From positions 1-64,000 of the forward strand of contig JAIUOK010000018.1 of assembly GCA_020161245.1 (NCBI GenBank): a DNA stretch of 64,000 bases, given 5' to 3'. The notes under the pieces are model-generated. The model was given only the letters and a program-made list of their open reading frames with translations. It was not told the origin of the DNA and made no database searches. Shown here piece by piece: positions 21,043-57,545 of this stretch. A program made the position numbers and the translations under genes. Source of the stretch: Actinomycetota bacterium. Its GTDB lineage: Bacteria > Actinomycetota > Actinomycetes > S36-B12 > CAIYMF01. Numbering within the stretch: the first letter of the stretch is position 1; every line of letters begins with the position of its first letter.

Positions 21043-21912
21043 GTGAGCGAACAGTCGAGCGCCTCCGAGCAGGGCGCGGCCGCCACGTCGGCCGCAGTCA
21101 CCTACGCCTCCTACCTGGAGGTGCCCGGGCTCCTCGGCCTGCAGCACCCCCGGAGCCGGCAGGCCGACGGCCTGCCCGAGCACGACGAGCTCCTCTTCAT
21201 CACCATCCACCAGGTCTACGAGCTCTGGTTCAAGCAGATCCTCCACGAGCTGCGCGGCGACGAGTCGCGGCCCGGCGAGGGCGGCGTCCAGGGCGCGCTC
21301 GCCGACGACGACGCCTACGCCGCGATGTCGCTGCTGGGCCGCGTGCTGACGATCCTGAAGACGCTCGTCGCACAGGTCGACGTCCTGGAGACCATGACGC
21401 CGCTGCAGTTCAACTCCTTCCGCGCCCGGCTGGAGTCGGCCAGCGGCTTCCAGTCCGGGCAGTTCCGCGAGCTCGAGGCCGTCCTCGGCCGCCGCGACCC
21501 GCGGCTGCTCACCACTGCCGTCCCCGGCGACCCCATCTGGGACCGCGTCCGGGCCGCGGTGCAGCGCCCGTCCGTCTGGGGCTCCTACCTGCGCTTCCTG
21601 GCCGGCCGCGGCCACGCCGTGCCGCAGTCCGTCCTCGACCAGGACCCGTTCCTGCCCTACGAGCCCGACGAGGGCGTCCGGCACGCGCTGGTGACGGTCT
21701 ACCGGGGCGACGACGCGGCGGCGCTCATCGCCGAGCGCCTCGTCGACCTCGACGAAGGCCTGCAGGAGTGGCGCTACCGCCACGTGAAGATGGTCGAGCG
21801 CACCATCGGGCACAAGCAGGGCACGGGCGGCAGCAGCGGCGCCGCCTACCTCGCCAGCACCCTGTTCACCCCGCTGTTCCCCGACCTCTGGGACGTCCGC
21901 GCCCAGTTCTGA
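21043..21912 (+). CDS. kynA: Tryptophan 2,3-dioxygenase
   Basis: The product is 289 aa. TDO signatures are evident: Y-L-E-V-P-G-L-L-G-L-Q near the N-terminus, H-D-E-L-L-F-I-T-I-H-Q-V-Y-E-L-W-F-K-Q, F-R-A-R-L-E-S-A-S-G-F-Q-S, and the C-terminal W-R-Y-R-H-V-K-M-V-E-R-T-I-G with the proximal heme His, then G-T-G-G-S-S-G. The enzyme opens the indole ring of L-tryptophan to N-formylkynurenine using heme and O2. No kynU or formamidase gene is adjacent, so the rest of the pathway lies elsewhere or is absent. Confidence 0.92.
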   Translation: MSEQSSASEQGAAATSAAVTYASYLEVPGLLGLQHPRSRQADGLPEHDELLFITIHQVYELWFKQILHELRGDESRPGEGGVQGALADDDAYAAMSLLGRVLTILKTLVAQVDVLETMTPLQFNSFRARLESASGFQSGQFRELEAVLGRRDPRLLTTAVPGDPIWDRVRAAVQRPSVWGSYLRFLAGRGHAVPQSVLDQDPFLPYEPDEGVRHALVTVYRGDDAAALIAERLVDLDEGLQEWRYRHVKMVERTIGHKQGTGGSSGAAYLASTLFTPLFPDLWDVRAQF

Positions 21913-21995
21913 CCCGCCCTGGTCGGGATGAAGGTTCCCTTCGTTCAATAGACCCGTCGTTTCTGGACATTCACGGTTCCAGGCCCGGTCTGCGT

Positions 21996-37277: not shown

Positions 37278-37310
37278 CCCACCCCGCGCCCCCCTCCTCA
37301 GGTGGTTTGC

Positions 37311-37433
37311 GGTGAAGGTGCCCCCACTTGCGATAGAAGCAAGTTTTCCGCCCCAGGCTGTCCACAGGCGCTTCCGCTGTGGACAGCCTGGGGCGCTCGT
37401 CTTGCTTCTATCGCAAGCAGGGGGCCCTTCACC
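37311..37433. repeat. 123-bp near-perfect palindromic element upstream of ruvC
   Basis: Nested complementary blocks: 37311-37318 with 37426-37433 (8 bp), C5/G5 at 37321-37325 with 37420-37424, 37327-37343 with 37401-37417 (17 bp, arm CTTGCGATAGAAGCAAG), and 37349-37367 with 37377-37395 (19 bp). Short internal loops separate them, with a 9-nt apical loop, giving about 50 paired bases. Each 17-bp arm is itself a mini-hairpin (CTTGC...GCAAG). It lies 33 bp after the yebC stop and before the ruvC promoter. It could terminate yebC transcripts, form a cruciform, or be a mobile palindromic repeat. Confidence 0.9.
37358..37386. other. Pair of inverted DnaA-box-like sequences
   Basis: CTGTCCACA (37358-37366) and its mirror TGTGGACAG (37378-37386) differ at one base from the actinobacterial DnaA box TTGTCCACA. 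They face each other within the inner stem of the palindromic element. Binding is unproven; the match could be a by-product of the palindrome. Confidence 0.4.
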
Positions 37434-37502
37434 CGGAAAGCCGGAGGGGCGGTCCGGCGGGGCGTTCGGCGTGGCGCGGGGGTGCTGGCGTTCGGGCGTG
37501 GT

Positions 37503-37508: not shown

Positions 37509-37524
37509 CCGAACACCTGTTCGG
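37509..37524. promoter_or_regulatory. LexA (SOS) box of ruvCAB
   Basis: CCGAAC-acct-GTTCGG is a perfect palindrome matching the actinobacterial SOS box core CGAAC-N4-GTTCG. It lies 36 bp before the ruvC start. LexA control of ruvC is known in mycobacteria, so damage-inducible expression of the Holliday-junction resolvasome is expected here. Confidence 0.9.
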
Positions 37525-56593: not shown

Positions 56594-56599
56594 CCTACC

Positions 56600-56651
56600 C
56601 GCTCTGGATGGGTGAGCGACGCCTATAGCCGTCGCTCACGCATCCAGAGCG
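56600..56651. repeat. Palindromic repeat, copy 1 (overlaps the 3' end of the GNAT gene)
   Basis: A 52-bp hairpin element with 22-bp arms (21 matches; arm begins CGCTCTGGATG) and an 8-nt loop containing CTATAGC. It is 48/52 identical to the copy at 57482-57533. The right arm encodes the last residues and the TGA stop of the minus-strand acetyltransferase. Confidence 0.9.
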
Positions 56652-57466
56652 ACGCCCTCCGGGAGGCGCCCAGTGGTGCTGCCCCGCTCGCGGACGAAGC
56701 CGAGCGAGGTGTAGAGCCGGGCGGCCGCGATGTTGTCGGCGTACGCGTCGAGGGTGACCGCGGACGCGCCGGCGTCGAGCGCGTCGCGGGTGACGGCGGC
56801 GCAGAGCAGCCGGGCCAAGCCCCGTCCGCGCCGCTCCGGGTGCGTGGCGACGTCATTGAGATGGGCCGCGCCCGAGCGCTGCCGGGTGACGGCCACCATG
56901 CAGGCCAGGCCGCCGGTGCCGGCGAGGCCGCCGTCCGGGTCGGCGATCACGGCCCAGCGGACGACGCGCGGGTCGCCCGCCGGGTAGGGGGCGTCCGGCG
57001 ATGCCAGGTCGAGGAGCGCCTTGAGCCTGGGGTCGTCGGCCGGCAGGTCCTCGACGACGCCGTCGGGCACCGCCACGGCAGGCCGCTCCAGCGTCGCCCA
57101 GCAGTCCCAGTCGGACACCTCGGCGGGCCGCAGCGCCTCCGGCACGAGCGGCATGCCGCCGCGCGGCACGGTGATCCCTCGCACGGGGTCGCCCTCGCCG
57201 GCCGCTGCCACGAGCTCCAGCACGAGGTCGACCCCCGCAGCCACATGGTCGGGATCGGCCGGGTCCGCGGCCAGCGCGTGGACCCAGCGCAGGCCCTTCC
57301 AGGGGTGCCGGGTGAGGAGCGCGGCCGCGGTGCCGGGCAGGGCCCGGACCTGCTCGAAGGAGCCCGGGTCGAGGTCGAACCGCACGAACCGGCTGTCGGG
57401 CAGCGCGGCCAGGAGCTCGGCGTGCAGCGCGAGCTGGACGTCGTCGGGAGCGGGAGCCACGGCCAC
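56636..57466 (-). CDS. GNAT family N-acetyltransferase with N-terminal extension
   Basis: The product is 276 aa from a GTG. Residues 1-130 form an N-terminal domain without clear motif (W-K-G-L-R-W-V-H-A-L-A). The C-terminal GNAT domain shows H-L-N-D-V-A-T-H-P-E-R-R-G-R-G-L-A-R-L-L with the acetyl-CoA loop R-R-G-R-G-L-A, and Y-A-D-N-I-A-A-A-R-L-Y-T-S-L-G-F. The substrate is unknown. The gene is bracketed by two copies of one palindromic repeat, and its C-terminal A-L-D-A plus stop are encoded by copy 1. Confidence 0.8.
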   Translation of the reverse strand: MAVAPAPDDVQLALHAELLAALPDSRFVRFDLDPGSFEQVRALPGTAAALLTRHPWKGLRWVHALAADPADPDHVAAGVDLVLELVAAAGEGDPVRGITVPRGGMPLVPEALRPAEVSDWDCWATLERPAVAVPDGVVEDLPADDPRLKALLDLASPDAPYPAGDPRVVRWAVIADPDGGLAGTGGLACMVAVTRQRSGAAHLNDVATHPERRGRGLARLLCAAVTRDALDAGASAVTLDAYADNIAAARLYTSLGFVRERGSTTGRLPEGVALDA

Positions 57467-57481
57467 ACCCCATCACGGACC

Positions 57482-57533
57482 CGCTCTGGATGCGTGAACG
57501 ACGTCCATAGCCGTCGCTCACGCATCCAGAGCG
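57482..57533. repeat. Palindromic repeat, copy 2 (overlaps the rarA promoter)
   Basis: Same 52-bp element in the same orientation as copy 1. Here complementarity extends to 29-bp arms (57475-57503 with 57512-57540, one mismatch) around an 8-nt loop. Its last base is the first base of the rarA -10 hexamer. Confidence 0.92.
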
Positions 57534-57539
57534 GGTCCG

Positions 57540-57545
57540 TAGGGT
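57540..57545 (+). promoter_or_regulatory. -10 hexamer TAGGGT for rarA
   Basis: TAGGGT ends 7 nt before the GTG at 57553, favouring this start over the GTG at 57544 that lies inside the hexamer. Confidence 0.5.

Follow-up and report, generated by a model that had tools for sequence, protein, structure and literature searches.

Palindromic repeat families dispersed in an actinobacterial genome and their association with a bracketed, nuclease-like gene

The palindrome between yebC and ruvC

The window analysed here is a stretch of 64,000 nucleotides from the genome of an Actinomycetota bacterium. Between the stop of yebC (37277) and the start of ruvC (37561) it carries a near-perfect palindrome at 37311-37433, which a first-pass annotation had picked out and which proved to be real. 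Its two arms, 37311-37367 and 37377-37433, are 57 nt long each, 84% complementary and separated by a 9-nt centre. Furthermore, when folded as RNA the element forms one long hairpin of -113.2 kcal/mol, compared with -57.9 +/- 4.3 kcal/mol for shuffled sequences (z = -12.8), and none of the 200 shuffles was equally stable. A search with the palindrome for known RNA families returned only sub-threshold miRNA matches, because it folds as a long hairpin. The 17-mer CTTGCGATAGAAGCAAG has just two copies in the window (0.01 expected), which are inverted and both lie in the palindrome. The stretch homologous to other copies exceeds the ends of the palindrome by a few bases (~37305-37440), and at its edge a weak TTnC precedes GGTGAAG. 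The features of the locus are the following:

37311-37433, no strand: palindromic element, an inverted pair of family-1 arms (fold, complementarity, both arms homologous to 47 other arms)
37305-37367, plus strand: left arm (TTTGCGGTGAAGGTGCCCCCACTTGCGATAGAAGCAAGTTTTCCGCCCCAGGCTGTCCACAG; match to the R1 sequence model, E 2.2e-19)
37377-37440, minus strand: right arm, inverted copy (match to the R1 sequence model, E 2.7e-19)
37327-37343, plus strand: inner hairpin of the left arm, stem CTTGC/GCAAG, loop GATAGAA (genomic copies; stem compensation between species)
37401-37417, minus strand: inner hairpin of the right arm (genomic copies; stem compensation between species)
37350-37394, no strand: inner inverted pair GCCCCAGGCTGTCCACAG ... 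CTGTGGACAGCCTGGGGC
37510-37523, plus strand: LexA-type box CGAACACCTGTTCG in the ruvC promoter-like region, outside the palindrome (read in the sequence)

The palindrome lies upstream of the ruvC promoter-like region, whose LexA-type box is also found in several congeners.

Dispersed arms in the genome of the window and in its congeners

The genome of the window (G000, 4.3 Mb) was compared with those of ten congeners (G001-G010). The genome-wide search for copies that the first-pass annotation had proposed returned many of them: 49 family-1 arms were found in G000 with the R1 sequence model, and the 17-mer at up to two mismatches occurred at 46 places, against none for a reversed control pattern. 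An assembly artefact is excluded, as more than 30 further places, spread over many contigs, carry near-identical arms. Neither is it an element conserved at this locus only: the family is dispersed in its own genome, and none of the ten congeners has a family-1 element in the yebC-ruvC gap. Both observations support a non-autonomous mobile palindrome, which had been one of the earlier suggestions.

The family-1 arms are alike over about 50 bp, as GGTGAAGGTGCCCC-nn-CTTGCGATAGAAGCAAG-nnnn-GCGCCCCAGGCTGTCCACAG. The unit of the family consists of TGAAnGTGCCCC, 2 nt, a hairpin (stem nnTGC/GCAnn, 5 bp; loop GnTAGnn), about 5 nt and CGCCCCA..TGnnTCCACAG, and it occurs mostly as an inverted pair. Regarding the layout in G000, there are close inverted pairs with ~75-130 bp between the hairpins, such as the one in the window, spaced convergent pairs 0.7-3.9 kb apart, and single arms. 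Most copies are downstream of genes, many of them just past stop codons; with gene calls trained on yebC and ruvB seeds, the 33 classifiable elements fell into 21 tandem, 10 convergent and 2 divergent gaps, the gene gaps of the window being 21 tandem, 7 convergent and 9 divergent. In five G000 arms the outer part is an alternative module, which has a hairpin of its own. This module, CCCCTACTGG...CCAGCGGGGGCCCAT, was seen on contigs C16, C64, C79 and C92 of G000, and in tandem in the yebC-ruvC gap of G001.

The spaced pairs bracket genes, as the attC-like sites of integrons would do in mobile gene cassettes. We rejected this candidate, as the order purC-galE-purS is ancestral in relatives that have no arms there. 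Spaced pairs around ordinary native genes such as galE do not fit a simple insertion model either, and neither a target-site duplication in the flanks of the arms nor a mobility event as such was observed. In G000 and the congeners, the strand that enters an arm from outside is strikingly rich in C and poor in G, and a T-tract (TTnC) marks the point where it meets the arm; this flank looks like a 3' region of the Rho type or like a preferred target. Two single arms have neighbours of a different kind. One lies beside an island-like region with deviating codon use (G000:C3:3000-9584), which contains a helicase/primase-like gene and a gene for a DUF4143-type ATPase, and the other, at a contig end, adjoins a gene for an integrase-like protein that appears to belong to the tyrosine type (G000:C89:1-1600).

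The exact arm was absent from the 59 relatives searched. In 257 Gb of genome contigs the exact 17-mer had 30 matches with about 30 expected by chance, and therefore the exact arm is confined to this organism or its nearest kin. Diverged arms were nevertheless recovered with the R1 model in G002, G006, G007 and G009 (44, 32, 67 and 57 arms, respectively), the other congeners having 0-2: G001, G003, G004, G008 and G010 gave 0-1 weak matches, and G005 only 2 with this G000-based model, yet it has matching arms beside the nuclease-like gene described below. The arm consensus is species-specific in each genome. Four parts of the arm are invariant or nearly so across species: TGAAnGTGCCC, nCCCC, the TAG in the loop and the inner stem, which reads TGC/GCA except in G005 (GGC/GCC). 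Two outer stem pairs vary between species yet stay paired, in 100 and 102 of the 121 arms from six genomes; shuffled controls averaged ~50 and did not exceed 65 and 64, respectively. The exception to this compensation is found in G002, where 15 of 24 arms have G opposite A at one of the pairs.

Some arm sites are common to species, namely hspR-clpB and topA-methyltransferase in G000 and G002, and three sites in G000 and G009. The arms at such shared intergenic sites match the consensus of their own species, which suggests either hotspots or concerted evolution.

The bracketed nuclease-like gene and its paralogs

One gene per genome is recurrently bracketed by the arms. In G000 it is G000:C40:512-1525, which encodes 338 aa and has murA and small genes as neighbours. 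Close homologs (55-58% identity) occur in G002, G005, G006, G007 and G009 and in none of the remaining five congeners, and in all six genomes the gene is flanked on both sides by the genome's own arm family. An upstream arm precedes it by ~55-110 bp, and other arms lie at or just past its stop codon. The presence of the gene tracks that of the arms: every congener with many arms has it, and it is missing where the arms are missing. Its location changes, with some of the neighbours named directly from the sequence. It lies between dusB and glyS in G005 and G006 and at further sites in G000 and G002; G007 and G009 share a different site, with the same neighbours on either side but the gene in opposite orientations. 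The tree of these proteins does not contradict mostly vertical descent.

The encoded protein is predicted to be a DNA-binding nuclease that combines an AbiEi-type winged helix with a Vsr/MTES_1575 (EDxHD-like) domain. Among 16 homologs, the N-terminal AbiEi_4 winged helix (PF13338) was matched in 14 and the C-terminal MTES_1575 in 9, the C-terminal domain of the homologs being of MTES_1575 or DUF559 type, with a Vsr-type nuclease profile. The AbiEi models of PADLOC match all 16. The residues E215, D248, E259-x-D261 and H266 are invariant in these 16 proteins, and E-D-(E/Q)xD-H is retained in nearly all of the 51 homologs of the wider set considered next. Profile matches to PDB entries were weak and suggestive only (PvuRts1I and Vsr-like proteins, E 0.1-0.3), including that of the C-terminal part to 3r3p (E ~0.3), an endonuclease from a mobile intron.

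At a cutoff of E <= 1e-20, 63 of the 297 genomes in a class-wide search had homologs. One weak homolog was present among 72,556 plasmid records, and none in the phages searched. At 34 of 51 homolog loci there were flanking inverted repeats that beat all 200 shuffles, each with a sequence of its own, in which TAG or CTATAG usually stands close to the loop of the hairpin. In the control, 2 of 55 window genes had such repeats, one of them being a gene that family-3 palindromes bracket (see below). The other 17 homologs had no flanking inverted repeat by this test, at least two of them being misses of the test: in G000 the downstream arm lies outside the 240-bp test window, and in the case of G007b the flanking repeats are direct rather than inverted. 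As we had predicted beforehand, the repeats that flank the paralogs G000:C79 and G001:C62 are dispersed in those genomes, 32 and 40 times respectively; they were found in none of ten other genomes. Across the homologs, loss of the active site and loss of the repeats were not significantly correlated (Fisher p = 0.59). In G013 and G016, one paralog pair has neither the active-site residues nor flanking repeats, and the intact paralog there has repeats; this joint loss is suggestive only.

Repeats of the paralogs also occur in the window:

21929-21952, plus strand: degenerate family-2 arm (TGAAGGTTCCCTTCGTTCAATAGA), the repeat that brackets the paralog G000:C79:51579-52541 (3 mismatches to the pattern)
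56597-56651, plus strand: family-3 palindrome (GGATGGGTGAGCGACGCCTATAGCCGTCGCTCACGCATCC), also found upstream of a third paralog, G000:C59 (sequence match)
57475-57540, plus strand: second family-3 palindrome (sequence match to the first)

The window thus has members of three nuclease-paralog repeat families, since copies of families 1, 2 and 3 are all present. The two family-3 palindromes are near-identical, 55-66 bp long and centred on CTATAG, and they bracket a GNAT-like gene on the minus strand (56636-57466). The degenerate family-2 arm lies just past the stop of a gene that ends at 21912.

Interpretation and comparison with known systems

The association between the repeat families and the nuclease-like gene is strongly supported. 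We consider it probable that dispersed, REP-like palindrome families are tied to the single-copy predicted nuclease gene they bracket, that this nuclease cuts the arms, and that repair spreads them. The winged helix of AbiEi type would recognise the cognate arm, and the nuclease domain would nick or cut it, the substrate probably being a hairpin that is extruded or single-stranded. Arm DNA would then be copied into the break by host repair, bringing arms to new intergenic sites and keeping the copies within one genome alike, and the same process might occasionally move or flip the nuclease gene. The dispersal of the arms, their bracketing of the gene, the co-occurrence of the two in genomes, the conserved active-site residues and the changing location of the gene are observations, whereas a role for the nuclease in spreading the repeats is inferred; for binding, cleavage and copying we argue from the analogous REP/RAYT system, in which the enzyme both binds REP DNA in single-stranded form and cleaves it (PMC3733652).

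The chief rival to spread by the nuclease is an AbiEi-type regulon, in which the arms would be operators, the AbiEi-like protein an autoregulated transcription factor, and its nuclease domain incidental or devoted to defence. Winged helices of the AbiEi type bind to inverted repeats of 23 bp in the promoters of their own genes (PMC7319586), and the arm ~55-110 bp before the gene, together with the PADLOC matches of all 16 members, would suit such a role; binding without mobility is possible, since repressors that act on inverted repeats are known among the AbiEi relatives. However, arms also lie at or just past the stop codon of the gene, the copies are mostly in tandem or convergent gaps near 3'-ends (21 and 10, with 2 divergent), near-identity over ~50 bp exceeds what an operator needs, and the sets of sites differ between species, most orthologous sites being without the element. 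We hold the regulon to be rather unlikely. A MITE or REP family moved by some other, conventional transposase, with the nuclease gene as a passenger or captured gene, seems distinctly improbable to us. The elements are compact, intergenic and built of inverted repeats, as is typical of MITEs and REPs (PMC3733652), and our genome-wide transposase search covered PF01797 only. Nevertheless, the RAYT/Y1 transposase is missing from all 11 genomes, G000-G010, where the positive controls were found; moreover, the association recurs class-wide with differing repeats and distant paralogs, and the prediction about the repeats of the C79 and C62 paralogs held, which is not expected of a passenger.

The remaining explanations bear mainly on the yebC-ruvC copy. 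The first-pass annotation had considered an extreme terminator. A palindrome that terminates transcription or stabilises mRNA at yebC and other genes, and that was spread by ordinary duplication, would be in keeping with the very stable hairpin and with the many copies just past stop codons. Such a role is possible as a side effect, but as a general explanation it is very improbable: the single arms form a 5-bp hairpin only, which is unable to terminate in this manner, there are merely ~50 arms in 4.3 Mb, and neither their dispersal nor the bracketing of one gene family is accounted for. We strongly disfavour, as close to negligible, the idea that the element is a cruciform or Holliday-junction-like substrate of the RuvABC proteins encoded next to it. 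The palindrome does adjoin ruvC and its perfect segments are able to extrude, and hence the earlier proposal of a functional link; however, other copies lie beside unrelated genes such as clpB, topA, purC and murA, the ten congeners keep ruvC without this palindrome in the yebC-ruvC gap, and the ruvC promoter with its LexA-type box is outside the element. The copy between yebC and ruvC is most likely a passive insertion, and it may also terminate yebC transcription or stabilise the yebC RNA.

Returning to the nuclease-driven spread, we are evenly divided on a wider form of it, in which there would be a class-wide counterpart of REP/RAYT in Actinomycetes, of independent origin. Nucleases with an AbiEi-type winged helix and an EDxHD-type domain would cut hairpin repeats and, through copying repair, spread and homogenise them in a homing-like way, with several nuclease-repeat pairs coexisting per genome, at least three of them in the organism of the window. 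Our search of the literature for this protein family together with palindromic repeats found nothing relevant; subscription papers and bioRxiv preprints were largely outside that search, and a prior description is possible. To our knowledge, RAYT is the sole dedicated enzyme class known for REP-type palindromes. If the proposal is true, a second, unrelated enzyme type has its own repeats, and domesticated repeat-enzyme pairs have more than one origin. A large set of actinobacterial genes that currently carry the label 'AbiEi antitoxin' or 'DUF559' would then have a function open to testing, and candidate sequence-specific hairpin nucleases would become available. Furthermore, AbiEi calls in surveys of defence systems may contain genome-repeat systems, and this caution is worth taking into account.

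Among the known systems, REP/REPIN elements with their RAYT (TnpA-REP), the 'REPtrons' of the GTAG super-family, are alike in many respects. They too are short intergenic palindromes, often inverted dimers with a bias to the 3'-side of genes, and they form species-specific families, each with one single-copy enzyme gene bracketed by its own repeats; they are chromosomal and missing from most relatives. REP/REPIN-RAYT proper is nonetheless ruled out by the missing Y1 transposase. The partner here is an AbiEi-type winged helix with a Vsr-like nuclease instead of a Y1/HUH transposase, and there is no GTAG (or CGTC) tag at the foot of the hairpin, which is preceded by TGAAnGTGCCCC and has a GnTAGnn loop (121 arms, six genomes). 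CGTC-tagged REPs are also tagged palindromic repeats reported without a dedicated transposase, none having been found in a survey (PMC3733652), but their stems of 8-9 bp, loops of 4-5 nt, CGTC tag and mainly alphaproteobacterial distribution are not shared by the arms. MITEs are likewise non-autonomous inverted-repeat elements in intergenic DNA; here, however, with PF01797 as the transposase family searched genome-wide, no parent insertion sequence with these ends and no target-site duplication was found, and arms also occur singly. The AbiEi antitoxins of type IV toxin-antitoxin systems share the N-terminal winged helix and the upstream inverted repeats, whereas the proteins described here have a C-terminal Vsr/MTES_1575-like nuclease domain and their repeats lie also downstream and genome-wide. 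Finally, the EDxHD or Vsr-like homing endonucleases (e.g. I-Bth0305I, 3r3p) have the same E-D-ExD-H constellation, whereas the genes found here lie outside introns and inteins and are associated with dispersed palindromes.
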